Assembly: GCA_938074205.1 (NCBI GenBank)
Contig: CALJES010000018.1
Span: 1 to 64,000, forward strand
DNA length: 64,000 nucleotides
Origin: an uncultured bacterium
GTDB taxonomy: Bacteria; Armatimonadota; UBA5829
Direction: 5' to 3'
The position numbers were made by a program, and so were the translations under genes. This document shows positions 408 to 10,732 of this stretch, one piece after another. The first letter of the stretch is position 1, and every line of letters begins with the position of its first letter. Under the pieces are notes generated by a model. That model was not told the DNA's origin. It saw nothing but the letters and a program-made list of their open reading frames with translations, and made no database searches.

Positions 408-1181
408 ATGGAACACGCTAACATTCAGATCTTCATCGCGACTATACTAATCGCCGGTTTGATATTGCATGGCATATTTACTGCCCGCAGGGGCGGACCC
501 CTCTTTATTAGGCGCATACCGGGGCTAACAGAAATTGACGAGGCTGTAGGGCGCGCAACCGAGATGGGCCGGCCGGTGATATTCCATCCTGGCACGGCAG
601 AAGTTCAGAACATCGGTACGCTTTCAGCTCTTGGCGTATTGGGGCATGTAGCTCGAAACTGTGCCCGCCTGGGAACAAGGCTTATAGTTACTACAGCAAT
701 TCCGGTGGTTGTGCCGGTGGCGGAGGACATTGTAAAGCAAGCCTATCAAGAGGAAGGTCGTCCGGAGCTTTTTGATCCAGAAGACATAAGATTCCTGGCA
801 GCTTCTGCAGATCAGCTGGCCTTGGCCACGGCGAACTTGATGGAGCGGGAAAAAACGGCCTCGCACTTCTTCTTCGGCTCCTATGACTACACGTCTCTTT
901 TGCTTACCGAGCCTGGCCAGCGCACGGGAGCACTTCAGATAGCGGGCACAGATCAGTACTTTCAGGTGCCTTTTTTTATTGCCAGCTGCGACTACACGGT
1001 TATCGGCGAGGAGCTCTATGCCGCTAGTGCCTATCTGACACGTGAGCCTACTATGCTCGGCAGCCTAGTCGGACAAGATAGAGCCAAGGTTGTTATACTA
1101 GCAATTATCGTGTTGGGAGCGCTTGGCGTTACATTTGGTCTAGGCGACTTGGTAAACACCATTGTGGGGGTCTACAGGTAA
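408..1181 (+). CDS. DUF6754-like membrane protein
   Basis: A 257-residue protein with an N-terminal membrane helix (about residues 8-25), a cytoplasmic-looking alpha/beta domain and a C-terminal helix (about 226-250). The short basic stretch after the first helix (ARRGG) and the segment GRPVIFHPGTAEVQNIGTLS recall the DUF6754 family, which is of unknown function. I assign the family from memory with moderate confidence. It is the first gene of a six-gene operon and its stop codon abuts the GTG of the next gene with no spacer. An ATG start fits, with a weak AGGG upstream. Its role is probably as a membrane-anchored part of whatever complex the next three genes form. Confidence 0.7.
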   Translation: MEHANIQIFIATILIAGLILHGIFTARRGGPLFIRRIPGLTEIDEAVGRATEMGRPVIFHPGTAEVQNIGTLSALGVLGHVARNCARLGTRLIVTTAIPVVVPVAEDIVKQAYQEEGRPELFDPEDIRFLAASADQLALATANLMEREKTASHFFFGSYDYTSLLLTEPGQRTGALQIAGTDQYFQVPFFIASCDYTVIGEELYAASAYLTREPTMLGSLVGQDRAKVVILAIIVLGALGVTFGLGDLVNTIVGVYR

Positions 1182-2039
1182 GTGGCAACCAGAAGACGTT
1201 TAATCGCCGCGGTTACCTTTCTGGCAGGCCTGTACTATTTTTTGGAGTTCATCGTCCCGCCTACGATCCCGTGGCGGACCGTGCAAGGGCGGGTATTAAA
1301 AGTCACCCGCAATGAAGTTATCCTCAAAACGGACGGCCGCACGGTCAAAGTTTACTCGCTGCAGAATATGATCGCATTCCGGATGCGGCCGACTGGAGCG
1401 CCTGAGCGAGTAGAATTGCGATCTCTACGACCTGGTGACGAGGTCTCCATAGGTCCGACAACTTATCTTTCGGATTGGATAACGGACGTCAACAATTTCT
1501 TTGTCGTCTTGGGCGCTATGGCTTGGGGCATGGGGCTGATGAGCCTTTGGATGGTCCACTCGGCTAATATCCGAAAGCGAAAAGAGGAGTGGTATGGCAG
1601 CGTTCTATTCTTCGTAGCGGTTGCCGTCGGTATTGTTGCTGGCCTAGGATATGGTGCAGAGGCAGGTATGCTCAAGCGAATGAACGATGTGGTTGTAAAC
1701 GATGTGCTGCGCCCGATGGGCTCTACGGTTTTCTCGCTGCTGGCTTTCTATATGGCGTCGGCTGCGTATCGGTCTTTCCGACTCAAGTCGCGCGAAGCTA
1801 TTCTAATGATGGGTTCTGCTTTCATAGTGATGCTGGGACAAATACCCATTGGGCTTTGGCTTACGCATCGCTTGCCTGAACCGCTCTGGTTTCCGGTTAT
1901 GAGCCAGTGGATTCTGTACATAGCAAATTCAGCCGCGGTTCGAGGGATGTGGTTTGGGATGATGCTGGGCGCTATCGCGGTCGGATTACGGTTTTGGTTG
2001 TCATTGGAGCGAGGGGCTTTCTTCGGCAAGGAGTTGTAG
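1182..2039 (+). CDS. Polytopic membrane protein, DUF6754 operon
   Basis: A 285-residue protein starting at GTG immediately after the preceding TAA. One N-terminal membrane helix (about 8-26) is followed by a small beta-rich segment (about 33-95, with alternating valines and the phrase VQGRVLKVTRNEVILKTDG) that looks like an OB or SH3-type barrel. About five more helices follow (roughly 103-125, 138-158, 178-195, 204-222, 250-270). I recognise no named family. Zero spacing to its neighbours argues for co-translation with the DUF6754-like protein and probable assembly into one membrane complex. Confidence 0.65.
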   Translation: MATRRRLIAAVTFLAGLYYFLEFIVPPTIPWRTVQGRVLKVTRNEVILKTDGRTVKVYSLQNMIAFRMRPTGAPERVELRSLRPGDEVSIGPTTYLSDWITDVNNFFVVLGAMAWGMGLMSLWMVHSANIRKRKEEWYGSVLFFVAVAVGIVAGLGYGAEAGMLKRMNDVVVNDVLRPMGSTVFSLLAFYMASAAYRSFRLKSREAILMMGSAFIVMLGQIPIGLWLTHRLPEPLWFPVMSQWILYIANSAAVRGMWFGMMLGAIAVGLRFWLSLERGAFFGKEL

Positions 2040-2043
2040 GAAG

Positions 2044-2916
2044 TTGGATTTCTTGATCAGGCTTCAGAACATAGACCGTCGATGGCTGTATTTGGCGCTT
2101 GCAATTGCTTGCCTGGTCCCATTTCTGGTGACGATACGTCTTCCGGTATATGTCTCGCCGGAGACGCGCAATCTGTACGAGTGGATCGACAAATGTCCAC
2201 CGGGCAAGGTTGTACTCGTAGACAGCGCTTGGGATGCAGGAAGCCTGGGTGAGAATTGGGGACAGGTGGAAGTGGTCTTTGATCACATGCTTCGGAAAGG
2301 CATCAAGTTCGTAGTTATCTCACTGGACATAACCCCTTTAGGTCCGCAGTTTGCCGACAAAGTCATCACCAAGCTGGTAACCACAAAATATCCGCATCGC
2401 AAGTATGGTGTAGATTGGGTTAATCTGGGGTTTACCAAGGGTGATTGGCAAGCGATGCAGCAAATAGCCAGAGACATTAGACGTCAGTTCAAACGCGACT
2501 CTCGGGGCTGGTCGTTGGACGACTTTGAGCACCTGCCTCTTATGCGGATGGTACGCAACATCGACGATATCTACATGATCTACTCTGTGACATACTCGCC
2601 ACTGGAGAATTGGATTCCTTTTGTCCACGGCGTATACGGTACACCAATCGGCTTTGGATGTGCGGGTATACAGTCTACAACCTACTACCGGTATATACTT
2701 TCTAAACAATTGGTTGGTATGTTGGTCGGTGTGCGAGGCGCGGCTGAATACGACGCCCTGCTTTATCCTGACGTGCAAAAACGCGAGAGTCTGGGTACAA
2801 AGCTAATCGTCCCCCAGGCTTTTGGGCATGCAGCCATAATAGTGGCTGTTGTTTTAGGGAACATCGGCTATTTTGCTTCGAGGAAGAAGGAGCGTAAAGT
2901 TGGATCAACCCGCTAA
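2044..2916 (+). CDS. Membrane-anchored protein with large soluble domain
   Basis: A 290-residue protein with a TTG start four bases after the preceding stop. There is an N-terminal helix (about 16-34), a soluble domain (about 40-250) with alternating strand and helix pattern (for example GKVVLVDSAWDAGS and GIKFVVISLDI), and a C-terminal helix (about 258-278). The two-anchor layout mirrors the DUF6754-like protein at the operon start. The strand-helix order suggests a Rossmann-like or nucleotidase-like fold, but I see no catalytic motif. No named family is recognised; the link to its neighbours rests on operon position. Confidence 0.62.
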   Translation: MDFLIRLQNIDRRWLYLALAIACLVPFLVTIRLPVYVSPETRNLYEWIDKCPPGKVVLVDSAWDAGSLGENWGQVEVVFDHMLRKGIKFVVISLDITPLGPQFADKVITKLVTTKYPHRKYGVDWVNLGFTKGDWQAMQQIARDIRRQFKRDSRGWSLDDFEHLPLMRMVRNIDDIYMIYSVTYSPLENWIPFVHGVYGTPIGFGCAGIQSTTYYRYILSKQLVGMLVGVRGAAEYDALLYPDVQKRESLGTKLIVPQAFGHAAIIVAVVLGNIGYFASRKKERKVGSTR

Positions 2917-3700
2917 TTGGCAGATCTGGCTTGCTGCGATTGTAACTTTAGGTATCTATTCTTACCTGTGGAACGATAACAAGCTGTACCGGATGCTGTT
3001 GAACGTTATGATTGGACTTGGTGTTGGTTACAGCTTCATCGTGATTTGGAAGAACGTGCTGGGCCCTTTGTGGTGGCAGCCGATGTGCCGGGGATTTGTG
3101 GCTGTCGCCCGCGGTTTTGCTCCCGGAAGCGCCGGAGCGCTTTGGATTTTGGTAGGTATTCTTGGAGCGCTTTGGTACTTTCAGTTCAGCCGCAAGTATT
3201 TCTGGCTTTCAAGAATAGTTATCGGCATGACGCTGGGCGCAGGCGCGGGGATGACGTTCAAGCAGCAGTTTCTGTTGAACGCACCTCAGATTACTGACTC
3301 TTTCCGTCCGCTAATCGCGCGAGCAGACGGCACACCGCTGTTTAATGGCAGTACGGCTCCCGTAAGCCTTTGGATGTCATTGAACAACATAATATTCGTA
3401 GGGACCATTATCTGTGTGATGGTCTATTTTCTGTTTTCGTTCGAGCATAAAGCTGCGCCTGTACGTGGAGCCGCCAAAGCCGGTAGATGGCTCTTGATGA
3501 TCAGCTTTGGAGCATTCTTTGGCAACACGGTGATGACTCGTATGGCTGTGTTCCTTGAGAGGCTGCAATTCCTAGCTGATAGTTGGGGACCCATTGTGCC
3601 AACCTGGATGTGGATTGCCGGCGGCGCGATTCTCGGAATATTCATTTATCTCATGCTCAGACATGCTCAGCATGGGCGGGCTAGTCAAAGTCAAACATGA
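2900..3700 (+). CDS. Polytopic membrane protein, DUF6754 operon
   Basis: A protein of about 266 residues with roughly seven hydrophobic segments spread over its length, no soluble domain and no recognisable family. I choose the TTG at 2900 because AGGAAGAAGGAG (2881-2892) is placed correctly before it. That start overlaps the previous gene by 17 bases, typical of translational coupling. The stop overlaps the next ATG in an ATGA arrangement. As the most hydrophobic member of the operon it is a candidate channel or scaffold subunit; that role is an inference. Confidence 0.6.
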   Translation: MDQPANWQIWLAAIVTLGIYSYLWNDNKLYRMLLNVMIGLGVGYSFIVIWKNVLGPLWWQPMCRGFVAVARGFAPGSAGALWILVGILGALWYFQFSRKYFWLSRIVIGMTLGAGAGMTFKQQFLLNAPQITDSFRPLIARADGTPLFNGSTAPVSLWMSLNNIIFVGTIICVMVYFLFSFEHKAAPVRGAAKAGRWLLMISFGAFFGNTVMTRMAVFLERLQFLADSWGPIVPTWMWIAGGAILGIFIYLMLRHAQHGRASQSQT

Positions 3701-6156
3701 AAGGAGCACTACCTCCAATGTGCAGACGTATTTTCTTTCTGTGCATAGTAGCCTCACTCGGTATTTCTGGTTCCATGAGCACTTACGCGGGAACTCCTCA
3801 CGACCCCTATATTTATTGGTTACCTACGGGCCAGACAAAGGCATCGGCGACATTCACCGTCAAACTGCGCCATACTAGATTCGGCTTGCCGGATGCTGAT
3901 CTGGTGTTGGTGCGACAATTGCAAGGGTCTAGAAAGCTGCCTACGCTGAAGGTAACAGTAGCGGGAAAGGATATAGGACCGGCGTGGTCGGGATTATGCC
4001 TTGTGATTCCTGCCAAGGATTTCGAGGGAATGGAGGAAGTGCCGATTACCCTGAGCGCGCCCACAGCGTGCAAATTCTATTTGACAAGAGACTTCCGCGA
4101 TCTATCCCCAGCACAGGTAAGTGACTACTTTCGCATCCTTAATGCTCAGTTTGCGGGAAACTGGAAGGAGATGCTGAAGACATCCGAGTTGCTGGCTGTC
4201 CGCAATGCTGACAACGCCTTGGGACGTCTAGCTCGCCTGAAAGCTCGATATGCAAGGTACAGAATGAAGTCGCAAGACAAGAAGATTTCGGCGCGAGGTC
4301 GATACCTGCTAGGCATGTACTGTATGGAAAACGGTTTCTGGGAAGACGCTGTGCGAGAATTTGAACTTGCTACCAAGCTGGATCCAAAGGATGCCGACTC
4401 CTGGTATATGCTAGCCGACGCACTGGCCTACCGCGACGGCGACAGCGGAGACAGGGTCGAGAAGCTGATACCCCTCTATAGACGGAGCGCCGAACTTCGA
4501 AGGCGCCAGCCTAACTGCTGGAACATATATGTGGGTATTTTCCGCAGAATGTGGGTTGAGGCTGACGACGGTAATGGCGGTCGCACTAAGAAGCTTCTTG
4601 AGATGAGCGAAGAGAACGTCGAGCGGATCAAGCGAGAATGGGGCTGGACGACTGACATACTATGGGCTGCGTCCCGAGGAAGCATGAAGTTCAACAATAA
4701 AATAGTCGTCCACGAGGAAGAGTTCGACAATACAGATCCTCACGCTTTCGATATGCTCTGGAAGCCCGGAGAGCAAGATGTCTTCATGAAGTTCTATGAG
4801 GGCGGACCCGCTGATGCAATGGGCCACGACTGCGGACCAAACCGCACAGCGATAGTGAATATTGGCACCTGGTGCGGTTGGGAAGTCTACCTGCACGAGT
4901 GGAACCATACCCTGGACTGGTCGATGATAACAAGTGAGAACGGTAAGGGTGTGCCGGTGACTCATTCGTCGGACTGGTGCGGTTTTCAGCCTATCCCTTC
5001 GATGGGGCGAGGCCATGCGTCTTGCAATCACTACTATATGACACCTGGTATGTTCTTGTCGGTTAAGGGCTCAGAGGCAAAAAGGCACGGGTACAACACC
5101 AAGTGGCTGATATACGGTCCGTATGAGTGTGAGCCGAACAAGGGGTTGGAAACGCCCTTCATAGACGAAACGTCTACGAAATTTTCGGAATCCAAAACTA
5201 GCACATCCGAAACTACCGTCAAAGACGACTGGATCGATCTCAAAAAACTGCTCAAGCCGTCCTCTGATGCCGTAGTCGCCTATGCCGGTGCCTACGTTTA
5301 CTCACCAACGAGGCAGAAGGTTAGAATGTGGCTTGGGATGAACGACGGCATTCGCGTTTGGCTCAACGGACGCCTAGTACATAAAGGGCTGTACAAGTCT
5401 ATCGCAATTTGGGAAGAAGCTAATGAGCCCGACCAAGTGGTGCCGACTATCCTCCTGCAAAAGGGTTGGAACTCGGTTTTGGTAAAGGTTGAAAACTTGC
5501 CGAGAACGCGAGAGGACCTCGAGAGGCTCGGTGTAAAGGAGAACGGCTGGGGATTTTCGCTGAGACTTAGCGGACTTCGAAACGAGGAACTGCCGGGAAT
5601 CAAGTGGTCGGTTGTGCCCCCCGCAAATTGGACACCCTCGAAAGTTACTCCAGATCCATCAGAGCACAAGCTTTACAGGTGGGAAGAAGTTCGCGACGAC
5701 TATACCACCTTACTCCCGTGCTTTTCCAACAAAGACCTCGAGGGTTACACTGGGCTGAAGAACTTGCACATCTCAAAGGAATGCCTGATCACCTGTGAAG
5801 GCGCTCAGAATAAACACAATTGGGTTGGCGCTTATGACGAGAATGACCGCACCCTCAACAACCTACTTAACTGGCGGTTCGAGTCTGCAGCCGTATTGCG
5901 TTACACAAACAAACAAAATCAGCTCAGAGATCTAGTCTTTTTACGGCCTGAAGCGTACGAGACTTACATATCGCTCATGCGAACAGACCCCAGCAGTGGA
6001 ATAAAACGTCACGAGGAACGAGTCCTGGGTTATGTATTGGTTTTTGGTCTAGAAGACCATCCGAACGGTCGCGTTATGTTGGTATTGGACACTTATGTAG
6101 GCAAGGAGTTGCCAGCTGAGGACAAGGACCTCTTGGATCTTACGAGAATCCGATAG
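3697..6156 (+). CDS. Secreted HExxH metallopeptidase with TPR-like region
   Basis: An 819-residue exported protein. The signal peptide runs to about residue 35 (hydrophobic core FFLCIVASLGISG). An all-helical, TPR-like region lies at about 150-280. A zinc-peptidase signature HEWNH is at residues 400-404, followed by a GH-x-x-x-x-HYY motif about 30 residues later. A beta-rich domain at about 490-620 (ending QKGWNSVLVKVENL) resembles galactose-binding or PA14-like modules. The last 200 residues are unassigned. The ATG overlaps the preceding stop (ATGA); a second ATG at 3718 would give a shorter signal peptide. The substrate is unknown. Its position at the end of a membrane-protein operon suggests it acts on or is delivered by that complex. 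Confidence 0.72.
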   Translation: MKGALPPMCRRIFFLCIVASLGISGSMSTYAGTPHDPYIYWLPTGQTKASATFTVKLRHTRFGLPDADLVLVRQLQGSRKLPTLKVTVAGKDIGPAWSGLCLVIPAKDFEGMEEVPITLSAPTACKFYLTRDFRDLSPAQVSDYFRILNAQFAGNWKEMLKTSELLAVRNADNALGRLARLKARYARYRMKSQDKKISARGRYLLGMYCMENGFWEDAVREFELATKLDPKDADSWYMLADALAYRDGDSGDRVEKLIPLYRRSAELRRRQPNCWNIYVGIFRRMWVEADDGNGGRTKKLLEMSEENVERIKREWGWTTDILWAASRGSMKFNNKIVVHEEEFDNTDPHAFDMLWKPGEQDVFMKFYEGGPADAMGHDCGPNRTAIVNIGTWCGWEVYLHEWNHTLDWSMITSENGKGVPVTHSSDWCGFQPIPSMGRGHASCNHYYMTPGMFLSVKGSEAKRHGYNTKWLIYGPYECEPNKGLETPFIDETSTKFSESKTSTSETTVKDDWIDLKKLLKPSSDAVVAYAGAYVYSPTRQKVRMWLGMNDGIRVWLNGRLVHKGLYKSIAIWEEANEPDQVVPTILLQKGWNSVLVKVENLPRTREDLERLGVKENGWGFSLRLSGLRNEELPGIKWSVVPPANWTPSKVTPDPSEHKLYRWEEVRDDYTTLLPCFSNKDLEGYTGLKNLHISKECLITCEGAQNKHNWVGAYDENDRTLNNLLNWRFESAAVLRYTNKQNQLRDLVFLRPEAYETYISLMRTDPSSGIKRHEERVLGYVLVFGLEDHPNGRVMLVLDTYVGKELPAEDKDLLDLTRIR

Positions 6157-6183
6157 TAACCAATTTAAAGGAGCTAGCAACAA

Positions 6184-8598
6184 GTGAGAAAGCTACGCGC
6201 GATCTTGACGATCTTTACGCTGGTATCTTTGTTTCTGGGCTATTGCAGAGCAGACGAGCTTTCAATACGCACACTGAAAGTCTTGGCCGTCATCTACCGC
6301 GGAGCACCAGGAGATACACAGCGCCTCGATGATGCTGCCCTTGCGGGTACTCGCAATGGGATCGAACTGGGCCGACTTTTTTACTTCCGTAACACTCGCT
6401 GCAAGCTGAACTTGGACATTACATATCTGGTCGTGGATTCACCTGCCCCCAACAACGCCGGACCGACATATGACTACATAGTAAAAGATCTCGAGTCCCG
6501 CGGTATCAAGAAAGGCCAGTACGACGGGGTCTTTTGTACAGGCGTAGGATTCTTGGGCAATTTCGGCGGTTTCCGAATAATGGGCAAGACCGGCGCGTGC
6601 TTTGGCGGGACAGATCCGCGTGGAAACTTCTCCTGGTATCCGGAGGACAATCCCGACGTATGGTACGGCACAGCTTGGACATTTGTCCACGAGTTCCAGC
6701 ACGCACTTGACTCGCCGATTTGCACCAGCTCGGGCCACCCAGAAATGCTGCACGGTCATCCCTATGCGGACTCTATGGAACACTATTTCACCTGGGGACA
6801 TCGAGGCGCTATGCATTGGGATTGGATCGCACATACACTTTCGAGTTTTCAGGACTATCTCGACGTCTCCAGTGTGACGGACACTGTTATAACTACAGCT
6901 GACGCCGACGGTGACGGTATGCCGGATGATGACCCCCGCCTCCCAATGGACGAAAAACGCTTCGGATCAGACCCATCTAAGCCAGACACTGACGGTGACG
7001 GCCTGAACGACTTGGCTGAGTTCTGTGCCGACATATATAGGGGTTCCAACCCTCTGAAAACTGATACTGACGGGGATGGAACATCAGACGGCAACGATAG
7101 GAACCCGACTGTTGCAATAGCCGAAACGGTGGCTTATACAAAGACTGAGCTTCAAATTGACGGTCGCATGGAGGCGTGTTACAAGCAGCTCGTATCAAGA
7201 CCTTATGCGGGAAACTCGAGGGAGCTCGAAAACGCCAAGATATACGCGTGTTGGAATGAAGACGCGTTTTTCCTTCTCATCAAATCGAGTAAGCGCTGCA
7301 CATTGGATATGCTCATCGACACTAGCGCAGAGAACGGCTTCTGGGAGGGCGGGGATACATATCCGATTCGAGTTAGCCCAGACGGCAAGGTCACATTCTT
7401 CGAACTCGGTCTCTCTGGTGAGGTGCCCGGTGCGAAGGCTGTTTGGGGCAGTGACGGTTTGGAAATCAAGATTCCTGCTCTAATTGGCCAGGGAGTTTCA
7501 AATGAGATTAACTGGGGCGGCAAGCGCAGGCAAGAAGACACGACAGACGGAATGGTTCTGATGGCAGGGCGCAGGATCAGCTTTAACCTAATACTTTCGG
7601 CAGGCAAAGAGAAGGCTCTTTTCACTCCGAATTGGTCGATGTTTGATACCACACTTGCCAAATCGCCAACTGATCCACCCAAACCTAGTCTTCGATTCAC
7701 CAATAAACTCACTACTGAAGCGCAGCCGACGGTCGTTGTGACAGGTGTCTCGAGCACAGACCGGGTGGAGGTCGTAGATGGCCGAGGAAGGAAGCTGGGT
7801 GAGCGTTTGGGCAACGGACCGCTCGTTTTAACTGGAAAGGTGAGGGTTGGTTCAGACGCTGCCACAGGTTCCAACGTTTTGAAAGCGGTTTGCCGTGGCA
7901 TTGAATCTGAAGCGGTGACGGTCGTAGTAGACACTGCCGCTGAGCCGCCGCGCGTAAAGAGAACCAAGGAAGGGTTTGTTTCGGTAGAAGGAGAGGGTGG
8001 GGCCAGTGTCGATGTGTTTGTCGGCACGCGGTTATCCCCTGTGTGGCCGCTTCTCACCATTCAGCTAGATTCGCATGGGCGCGGTCAAGTTGTTTTGCAC
8101 GAGAACTTGAAGGGGTTCGTAGGAGCCTACGGCCTTGGCATGGCTTTTGATAAGCCAGTGTTTTGGCGTTTAGATGAAGAAATCAAGTTCGACTACAACG
8201 GCGACACTTGTGACCCGCGTCTTCCGGCGGAAGGGTTTTGCATAAGGTGGACAGGCTATCTTGATATTCCAAAAGATGGCGAATACACGTTTTACTTGTC
8301 TACCGATGACGGTTCGCGGTTGTGGGTTGACAACCAGTTGCTCGTGGACAACTGGGGCCACCACGCACTACAAGAGAAATCCGGTACGATGTTCTTAACC
8401 CGCGGTGAGCACGAGATCCGCATAGATTATTACGAGGAGTACGGCTGGGCAGCGGCGCATCTCGAGTGGTCCGGTCCGGGGATAACTCGTACTCACACGC
8501 TGCCGGTGAGACCTTGGCCAAGTGCGGCATCACCAGTCTCGTTTTTTGCACGACAGACAGACCCACTAGGAAATAGGTCAATCTTCAGAAACTTTTAG
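6184..8598 (+). CDS. Secreted HExxH metallopeptidase with TSP3 repeats and PA14
   Basis: An 804-residue exported protein. The GTG start follows AAAGGAG, and a signal peptide covers about residues 1-24. The peptidase domain has HEFQH at 169-173 and a later GHP...EHYF segment like that in the preceding gene. Three acidic calcium-binding-type repeats follow (about 237-310, DADGDG, DTDGDG, DTDGDG), typical of thrombospondin type 3 repeats. A CBM9/DOMON-like domain is at about 320-440. A C-terminal PA14 domain (about 640-790) carries STDDGSRLWVDNQLLVDNWG. It ends the operon. The architecture fits a cell-surface or released, glycan-associated protease; the substrate is unknown. Confidence 0.78.
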   Translation: MRKLRAILTIFTLVSLFLGYCRADELSIRTLKVLAVIYRGAPGDTQRLDDAALAGTRNGIELGRLFYFRNTRCKLNLDITYLVVDSPAPNNAGPTYDYIVKDLESRGIKKGQYDGVFCTGVGFLGNFGGFRIMGKTGACFGGTDPRGNFSWYPEDNPDVWYGTAWTFVHEFQHALDSPICTSSGHPEMLHGHPYADSMEHYFTWGHRGAMHWDWIAHTLSSFQDYLDVSSVTDTVITTADADGDGMPDDDPRLPMDEKRFGSDPSKPDTDGDGLNDLAEFCADIYRGSNPLKTDTDGDGTSDGNDRNPTVAIAETVAYTKTELQIDGRMEACYKQLVSRPYAGNSRELENAKIYACWNEDAFFLLIKSSKRCTLDMLIDTSAENGFWEGGDTYPIRVSPDGKVTFFELGLSGEVPGAKAVWGSDGLEIKIPALIGQGVSNEINWGGKRRQEDTTDGMVLMAGRRISFNLILSAGKEKALFTPNWSMFDTTLAKSPTDPPKPSLRFTNKLTTEAQPTVVVTGVSSTDRVEVVDGRGRKLGERLGNGPLVLTGKVRVGSDAATGSNVLKAVCRGIESEAVTVVVDTAAEPPRVKRTKEGFVSVEGEGGASVDVFVGTRLSPVWPLLTIQLDSHGRGQVVLHENLKGFVGAYGLGMAFDKPVFWRLDEEIKFDYNGDTCDPRLPAEGFCIRWTGYLDIPKDGEYTFYLSTDDGSRLWVDNQLLVDNWGHHALQEKSGTMFLTRGEHEIRIDYYEEYGWAAAHLEWSGPGITRTHTLPVRPWPSAASPVSFFARQTDPLGNRSIFRNF

Positions 8599-8757: not shown

Positions 8758-8979
8758 TTGGTGGTGGTAGTTATCCTGATCGTCGTGGCGGCAGTGGTTT
8801 TTGCTTTTGTCGGTCGAAGTAAGCCCCTGCCGACCGGGGAGGCAGCCGGAGTTGATCTCCCGCCGGTGAAAATTCCAACGTCGGCAACACCGATAAACCC
8901 TTATAAAGAGCGATCGAAGCCAGCGCCTGTCGAATCAAATCAGATTCCTTCGAAAGGCGAGCAATCGTGGGGCCCGTGA
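8758..8979 (+). CDS. Small single-pass membrane protein, start unclear
   Basis: The readable part is 73 residues: a strongly hydrophobic helix (residues 1-18) and a proline-rich, polar tail. Its stop overlaps the start region of the next gene (TGATG). The first usable codon is a TTG at 8758, inside the helix. A perfect AGGAGG lies upstream at 8702-8707, but the GTG behind it (8709) is in another frame and stops after nine codons. In the right frame 15 extra polar codons (8713-8757, no stop) would make a natural N-terminus, without a normal start codon. A non-canonical start, an indel, or a sequencing error are all possible. Confidence 0.45.
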
Positions 8980-9848
8980 TGCGACGCACTAAGTCAGGAT
9001 TCACACTTGTAGAGCTACTGGTAGTAATCGCAATCATAGCCATATTGGCAGCGATAATGTTTCCGGTAATGACGAAGGCCAAGCTGGCGGCACTGCGCTC
9101 GTCTTGTGCTTCGAATCTGGCACAGATAGGCAAGGCCCTAAAAATGTATGCTCAGGATTATCAAGGCTATTGGCCGGAGATGGACAACCCTATTCCGAGC
9201 AAGGAATTTCCGGGATCTGGAAGATACGATCTCAATTCCTGGGCGGACTGCCTGATTAGAACGAAGTACGTTACCAGCAAGAGGGTGTTCATATGTCCGG
9301 CTGCGAAGACGCCGAGTCGAGACATTGCTGACTGGAACGATCCCGCGGTGTGGGATGCTTCACCGGTTGGTCTCGGGAATAACTATGCCAGGGCGGCAGC
9401 GTGGGGATTTGTTCCCTACCAATATTCGTATGCGGCGAATTATTGGCTGATGGGTTCGAACGCTGGTATCAAGGTTGACGAAAAATGGGCGGTGCCGGTT
9501 TCTAGGATTATATGGATTGCTGAAGGAAACTGGTCCTGGTTCCAATGCCAATACGAGACGGCGAATGGCAAATGGCGATCCTCAGACTGGTATACGCTGT
9601 CGATGATAGACTGGCGACATCCGGCACCCACAAGTCCGGGAAAGCCACCGTCGCAAGGCGGCACTGGAACACTGGATGGGGCAGCCAATTTCCTGTTGCT
9701 TGATGGGCACGTGGTGTGGCTGGGTAAGTATATAAAGTTAGCGACAGAAAATCCCGAAAAGAAAGGGTTCTACATAAACCCACCTGGTGCAGACCCAATC
9801 GGGCTGCCATCGGACCTCGATTTCCTGCGATGGTTTGGAGCCGAATAG
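8967..9848 (+). CDS. Type II pseudopilin-like protein, H-X9-DG type
   Basis: A protein of about 293 residues. It has a prepilin leader and methylation motif (KSG cleaved before [19 protein letters not shown]), then a globular domain ending in the LLLDGHVVW segment typical of H-X9-DG proteins. These are abundant in Planctomycetes, Verrucomicrobia and Armatimonadota. Processing by a prepilin peptidase and insertion in the inner membrane or a pseudopilus is expected. The start may be GTG 8967 (AAAGG nine bases upstream) or ATG 8979 (just before the leader). It overlaps the preceding gene and precedes a paralogue. Confidence 0.85.
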
Positions 9849-9895
9849 GCGACAAATTTCGCAGAAAACCAATAATTATTGTGGGGGTGGCGAAA

Positions 9896-10732
9896 ATGAC
9901 ACGAGGAAAAACCGGATTCACGTTAATAGAGCTGCTCGTGGTGATCGCAATAATAGCAATACTGGCTGCCATCTTGTTCCCAGTGTTTGCGTCTATTCAG
10001 CGTAACGCTCAGAGAACAAGCTGCGCCGCAAATGAGAAACAGATTCTCTACGCGATTAACCAGTACATGCAAGATAATTCAGGCCGCGTGCCTCCGGGAT
10101 ATGATCCGGATCCTTCTGCTCCTTACAATTGGAGTACAGGCGATTTCGGCGTAACCTGGAACGAAAGGATTCTGCCCTACCTGAAAAACAAAGATGTTTT
10201 CATCTGTCCGTCGGTACCGACCGGGTTGCTCAGGCCGACCGTCAATTACTTTAAGTACAGGGCAGGGGGGTTCCCGACGACTTATGGTTACAATTGGCGT
10301 CTTTGCAGCGGTGGTGGGGATCAGAGCACAAACCCTACTTTGTATCCTCATTCAACCAAGTCTGCGCTAAGGGCAGCTGGGTTGTTTGGATTGACAGTGG
10401 CACCTGACTCGGTGCGTAGGCCTTCAAAAGTCATAATGATTTGCGAGTCTCAACATGGCGCAGATCGGATTACCGATAAGGGTCGATACTCCACCATTCG
10501 CGGCGGTGGCGGTTGTCTGGTCTATGCTGATGTAGGAAACTACTACTGGTTAATTCGCGGCCTTACAAATCCGTATCTACCACAGGGGCATATGGGCGGT
10601 GCTAATTTTGGAATGGTCGACGGGCACGTTGTGTTTGTAAAAATGACCCAGCCAAATACCAGTAGCCCTACCGGTCCAGGGACTCCACCGACGACAAGCA
10701 GTGTGGAGGCGGCGGGCCTGACCTGGTGGTAG
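9896..10732 (+). CDS. Type II pseudopilin-like protein, H-X9-DG type
   Basis: A protein of about 278 residues and paralogue of the gene before it. The leader KTG is followed by [19 protein letters not shown], and near the C-terminus there is FGMVDGHVVFVK, the H-X9-DG segment. I place the start at ATG 9896 or the in-frame GTG 9887, both next to the G-rich stretch at 9881-9890, since the longer frame has no ribosome binding site. It is followed by a bidirectional terminator, so the pair plus the small membrane protein form one transcription unit. The function of this family is not established. Confidence 0.85.
   Translation: MTRGKTGFTLIELLVVIAIIAILAAILFPVFASIQRNAQRTSCAANEKQILYAINQYMQDNSGRVPPGYDPDPSAPYNWSTGDFGVTWNERILPYLKNKDVFICPSVPTGLLRPTVNYFKYRAGGFPTTYGYNWRLCSGGGDQSTNPTLYPHSTKSALRAAGLFGLTVAPDSVRRPSKVIMICESQHGADRITDKGRYSTIRGGGGCLVYADVGNYYWLIRGLTNPYLPQGHMGGANFGMVDGHVVFVKMTQPNTSSPTGPGTPPTTSSVEAAGLTWW

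Follow-up and report, generated by a model that had tools for sequence, protein, structure and literature searches.

A conserved four-gene DUF6754 membrane cassette of Armatimonadota, its candidate ATPase partner, and a second copy beside two putative exported proteases

Do four consecutive genes for membrane proteins that lead straight into two genes for HExxH proteins serve the two proteases, or do they have a task of their own? The question arises at positions 408-8598 of the window, i.e. bases 1-64000 of contig C18 from the 3.02 Mb genome of an uncultured member of the Armatimonadota. An earlier note, made from the letters alone, had read the six genes (here g1 to g6) as an operon whose membrane proteins serve to deliver, anchor or activate two surface proteases. 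All six open reading frames (ORFs) were indeed recovered at these positions on the plus strand. Comparison across the phylum points to a different answer, in which g1-g4 form a conserved cassette with a partner ATPase encoded elsewhere in this genome, and the proteases are late neighbors.

The survey comprised 201 genomes spread over the Armatimonadota, 140 of which are treated below as good genomes, and 14 control genomes. About 50 DUF6754 loci were read, and profiles built up from the window's own proteins were run against all their ORFs. DUF6754, the family of g1, was present in 173 of the 201 genomes (about 86%) and in none of the 14 controls. In loci with at least 3.5 kb of sequence after g1, g2 always followed (44 of 44), and in 43 of these 44 g2, g3 and g4 were found in this order on the same strand. 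The sole exception was a locus of the window's type (type B; L008), of which only g1-g2 was seen. Among the good genomes, g3 and DUF6754 were jointly present in 127 and jointly absent in 13, with no mismatch in either direction. Genes g1 to g4 are one unit, a statement we make with near certainty, and the grouping of the four membrane genes in the earlier note stands. Upstream of g1, cassettes of the prevailing, resident type often carry two small genes, c4 (35 of 48 loci) and c5 (32 of 48), the latter encoding two transmembrane (TM) helices and a short soluble tail. DUF6754 proteins also occur in Chloroflexota, and as our survey covers Armatimonadota, restriction of the cassette to this phylum is not claimed. 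No DUF6754 relatives were found in viral contigs or plasmids. A scan of genome contigs yielded close relatives alone, which bore the labels Armatimonadota, Chthonomonadia or simply 'bacterium'. In several genomes the DUF6754 gene heading the cassette is duplicated in tandem (L043, 7506-9271; L053, 7885-9470; L044; L060).

Two further genes are linked to the cassette. The product of c9 is a MutL/GlmL-type protein of the ASKHA family (PF13941, E 4e-126), while c8 encodes 372 residues with a weak lipoyl-like match. In many families, c9 and c8 are placed between c4 and g1. Gene c8, usually together with c9, adjoins g1 upstream in families f13, f23, f28, f29, f32, f37, f38, f39, f41 and f42; in f18 the c9-c8 pair is located after g4. 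The window's genome carries the pair on a separate contig (C12), unlinked to its cassettes. Presence and absence tell the same story. In the good genomes, DUF6754 and c8 were both missing in 10 cases, DUF6754 alone in 3 and c8 alone in none (Fisher p 5e-13); for c9 the corresponding numbers were 10, 3 and 1, with 126 genomes having both (p 5e-12), the single c9-negative carrier of DUF6754 being one in which no c9 exceeded the cut-off. Thus, 10 of the 13 good genomes without DUF6754 also lack both c8 and c9. These ten joint absences fall in families f9, f11, f13 and f16, and since carriers exist in f11, f13 and f16, the cassette must have been lost several times. A partnership of the cassette with c9 and c8 is in our judgment highly probable. 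Two genomes of genus g113 (G181 and G184; 1.5 Mb, 97% complete) are without DUF6754, g3, c8 and c9, and this small-genome lineage offers a possible starting point for finding out what purpose the cassette serves.

Topology predictions suggest how such a partnership could be arranged. The product of g1 (408-1181) had been called DUF6754-like, which is borne out by a match to PF20539 over residues 4-245 (293 bits, cut-off 27; E 2.2e-87), making it a full-length member. Two TM helices (residues 8-26 and 220-238) enclose an alpha/beta domain, and an RR...RR pattern immediately follows TM1. A longer relative starts with a signal peptide, followed by an Fn3 domain, a TM helix and then the DUF6754 domain. 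This order and the positive residues after TM1 argue that the DUF6754 domain of g1 faces the cytoplasm. DUF6754 proteins of some families have N-terminal extensions of 150-380 residues (L066, 7598-8869; L063, 7903-9822), which in L066 include a fibronectin type III domain. The g3 product (2044-2916) likewise has an alpha/beta domain between N- and C-terminal TM helices (17-35 and 254-272). Here, positive residues precede TM1 and follow the last helix, and therefore the domain is predicted to be periplasmic. Genes g2 (1182-2039) and g4 (about 2900-3700) encode polytopic membrane proteins. For g2, g3 and g4 neither a consistent Pfam match nor an NCBIfam family was found. Several other candidate assignments were discarded: a GAF domain in DUF6754 (E 0.0024, under the cut-off), an Nramp identity of g4 (one relative among 16 members, E 0.0044, treated as chance), relatedness of g1 and g3 (5% in profile comparison) and a role in anti-phage defence, as PADLOC models matched none of g1-g6, c8 or c5.

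We propose that g1-g4 would form an inner-membrane complex, a conserved machine of the Armatimonadota, which is co-inherited with c9 and c8 and usually has the small genes c5 and c4 upstream. The cytoplasmic domain of g1 and the periplasmic domain of g3 would be joined via the polytopic proteins g2 and g4. A cytoplasmic ASKHA ATPase together with c8, beside a membrane-anchored cytoplasmic domain, suggests that c9 with c8 may dock on g1 and, at the cost of ATP, put the complex together or reset it. The complex could act on the cell envelope, a role that we regard as conceivable and somewhat doubtful. In the window's genus, the proteases would be at most passengers or clients on a shared transcript. 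As a whole, i.e. an ATPase-serviced membrane machine, a window copy that has moved and late protease neighbors, this is the best explanation we can offer, and we lean slightly towards it. A broader version falls just short of that: c5, c4, c9, c8 and g1-g4 may together specify an energy-coupled machine in the inner membrane that comprises about eight proteins, has no earlier description and is near-universal in Armatimonadota. An ATPase of the B12-enzyme-reactivase type would have been co-opted to power this transmembrane complex, whose four-gene membrane core would also spread horizontally between classes and be able to pick up exported neighbors.

Several observations weigh against this proposal. 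Related genomes enter the co-loss counts separately, which makes the p-values too small, although the pattern itself is plain. G023, G055 and G106, good genomes but all of them fragmented assemblies, have kept c9 and c8 without DUF6754. Type-B cassettes lie apart from c9 and c8, implying that some cassettes may work without the pair or rely on a common pair in trans. For g1 and g3, the AlphaFold models calculated with 9 and 7 close homologues, respectively, were poor (pLDDT 57 and 69), and Foldseek searches with these low-confidence models returned no PDB fold at E <= 0.001. Against this background, the main competitor of an envelope role has to be considered, namely that c9, c8 and the cassette constitute a membrane enzyme for redox chemistry or ion translocation, in which c9 would be a GlmL/BadFG-type reactivase and c8 a peripheral subunit resembling NqrA or RnfC. 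The ASKHA membership of c9, the two polytopic subunits, and the lipoyl-like and NqrA matches of c8 would fit such an enzyme. However, the NqrA match, which covers the barrel-sandwich part of c8 (E 5e-4), scores 19 bits and is far below the cut-off of 321; the neighbors of c8 are c9 and g1, and the cassette contains no other Nqr or Rnf subunit. Moreover, Pfam searches detected no cofactor- or quinone-binding family in g1-g4. We consider this enzyme unlikely.

The genome holds not one cassette but two. The resident cassette, accompanied by c5 and c4, is found on contig C6 (L003), and over g1-g4 it is only 41.2% identical to the window cassette. The latter belongs to a deep clade of its own, type B, which occurs in more than one class. 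None of c4, c5, c8 and c9 was seen beside a type-B cassette in any locus read. Over short distances both types diverge alike: the window cassette and its sister-species copy share 95.3% identity, and resident copies of the same genus 93.0%. Over long distances they do not: the window cassette is 77.5-78.5% identical to those at L006, L007, L009, L012 and in G044 (L076), a genome of a different class whose type-B cassette accounts for the 78.5%, whereas between the resident cassettes of the same two genomes (G000, the window's own, and G044) identity is just 48.2%. Short-range rates that agree, set against long-range identities that differ so much, argue for horizontal movement of the type-B cassette. 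Alternatively, the window cassette could be an ancient paralogue that descended vertically under stronger constraint, as its deep clade and its presence in more than one class might suggest. In that case the rates within the genus should not agree so well while cross-class identities differ. Vertical descent would also require many losses, given that resident-type cassettes predominate among the loci read from the window's own family, and we regard it as rather improbable. The window copy is probably a second, divergent cassette of horizontal origin. Since type-B cassettes consist of g1-g4 alone, these four genes appear to be the portable minimal unit, suggesting that their products are the core complex. 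In alignments, g2 of the window type carries an extra insert of about 90 amino acids between TM1 and TM2. In some type-B cassettes g2 and g3 are not adjacent: about 5 kb separates them in G044, with g3-g4 beyond (L076, 2220-7403), and at L006 (3142-4605) a 336-residue ORF and a second, short ORF lie in between. Downstream of another type-B cassette (L009, 13737-16967) lies an ORF of 1076 residues, the N-terminal part of which, judged by eye, resembles a tubulin-like/FtsZ-type nucleotide site (GLGGSG).

How, then, do the proteases relate to the cassette? Gene g5 (3697-6156) encodes a putative exported protein with Pfam matches to TPR repeats and HEWNH at residue 400, and g6 (6184-8598) one with HEFQH at residue 169, Asp-rich repeats of the calcium type and a PA14 domain (residues 674-769, E 5e-24). 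Export is predicted from the N-terminal sequences. Full-length homologues retain the zincin signature in both cases: the HExxH motif, H423 and D426 are invariant in five g5 homologues, and H169, E170, H173, D176 and H192 in seven g6 homologues. Both proteins have HExxHxxD followed by a His exactly 23 residues past the first His, and hhalign compared their peptidase regions with a probability of 46%; they may be distant relatives. As to delivery, anchoring or activation of g5 and g6 by the membrane proteins, the close packing of the genes on one strand, in the window as in the sister species, speaks for it, as does the retention of the two proteases downstream of the cassette within the genus (identities of 84% and 82%). 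However, of the 39 loci having 3 kb or more of flanking sequence, only two, the window and the sister species of the same genus, had g5 or g6 behind g4. Within the window's family, g6 turned up in just two of the 15 genomes, and most of the phylum has the cassette without either gene. Full-length relatives occur elsewhere, of g5 in G190, G130 and G002, of g6 in G130, G031, G038 and G142; within the fetched flanks, those in other families have no cassette gene nearby, and g5 and g6 lie apart. For the C-terminal regions of both proteins, matches to many further proteins were found across the phylum, and these regions may thus be common exported modules. Cassette and peptidases are rarely together across the Armatimonadota, an outcome that the earlier note itself had named as refuting its reading; the idea of a protease-delivery system, central to that note, was rejected, and we hold it to be very improbable. 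The proteases very probably lie outside the core cassette, to which they are a recent local addition in one genus.

That c9 is simply an accessory protein of glutamate mutase whose co-occurrence with the cassette is incidental hardly deserves credence despite its strong MutL match, since the mutase epsilon chain (PF06368) is missing from 200 of the 201 genomes, c9 scores below the cut-offs of the GlmL equivalog (241 versus 475 bits) and the subfamily TIGR01319 (193 versus 204), and it shares operons and losses with the cassette. These scores and the mutase in only 1 of 201 genomes place c9 on a separate branch, which probably has a job other than helping glutamate mutase.

Among known systems, the closest relatives are partial ones. 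PF20539 has no assigned function, and as far as our tools show, neither the four-gene cassette nor the ATPase partner is part of the family description. c9 resembles the GlmL/MutL accessory proteins (PF13941, NF040745, TIGR01319) over the whole length of GlmL; it differs in scoring under all NCBI cut-offs, in a C-terminus longer by more than 100 amino acids and in its linkage to a membrane cassette. PilM-PilN-PilO or FtsA-type platforms are similar in the way they work, combining a cytoplasmic ASKHA ATPase with membrane proteins that have a periplasmic alpha/beta domain, but their partners belong to other families and no sequence relation was detected. Secreted HExxH zincins with PA14 or TPR modules share with g5 and g6 the HExxH motif and the His at +23, but Pfam and NCBIfam searches placed neither protein in a named family of peptidases. 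In the open-licence literature no paper naming DUF6754, PF20539 or PF13941 was found, and titles and abstracts on GlmL/ASKHA proteins and Armatimonadota envelopes offered nothing on point. This agrees with the earlier note, which knew of no described system with this set. We could match the set to no known kind of system; that does not demonstrate a new mechanism. A gene set carried by about 86% of the sampled genomes is labelled only as being of unknown function, and its retention by so many genomes and its loss as a block indicate that it is likely central to how these cells are built or energised. The ATPase c9 and c8 provide a testable handle on the cassette, the function of which is not to be sought in g5 and g6.

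The gene spacing in the window depends on the starts chosen. Between g1 and g2 there is no gap, and g2 and g3 are separated by 4 bases. For g4, the ORF list gives a longer frame starting at TTG 2873, from which the frame is open, but TTG 2900 is the likely start, as it is preceded by the ribosome site AAGAAGGAG and agrees with the start of a homologue. The previously reported gaps of 0, 4 and -17 hold with this start. The reported overlap of -4 between g4 and g5 holds only if g5 starts at ATG 3697; a stronger ribosome site, AAAGGAG, precedes ATG 3718, which is perhaps the true start and would leave a gap of +17. Genes g5 and g6 are 27 bases apart. Promoter-like sites were not more frequent than in shuffled sequence, and 16 terminator-like sites compare with 9.5 in shuffles, none clearly dividing the six-gene run, so that the scan is compatible with one transcript or several and neither proves nor excludes either. 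As the window starts at contig base 1, 407 bp were available upstream of g1; in the sister-species contig (L005/L104), 2.6 kb upstream contained no further cassette genes.

Two prepilin-like genes follow the proteases on the same strand (8967-9848 and 9830-10732), also in the sister species. The first of them, in which the N_methyl motif was tested, has a weak DUF1559/SBP_bac_10 match, and the prepilin-like family recurs close to cassettes of other genomes. Farther downstream, positions 30896-52342 carry mreB-mreC-mreD, followed by a long flagellar run with FliF, FliH, FliK, FlgE-type and FlhA-type proteins and an FlhF-type GTPase.

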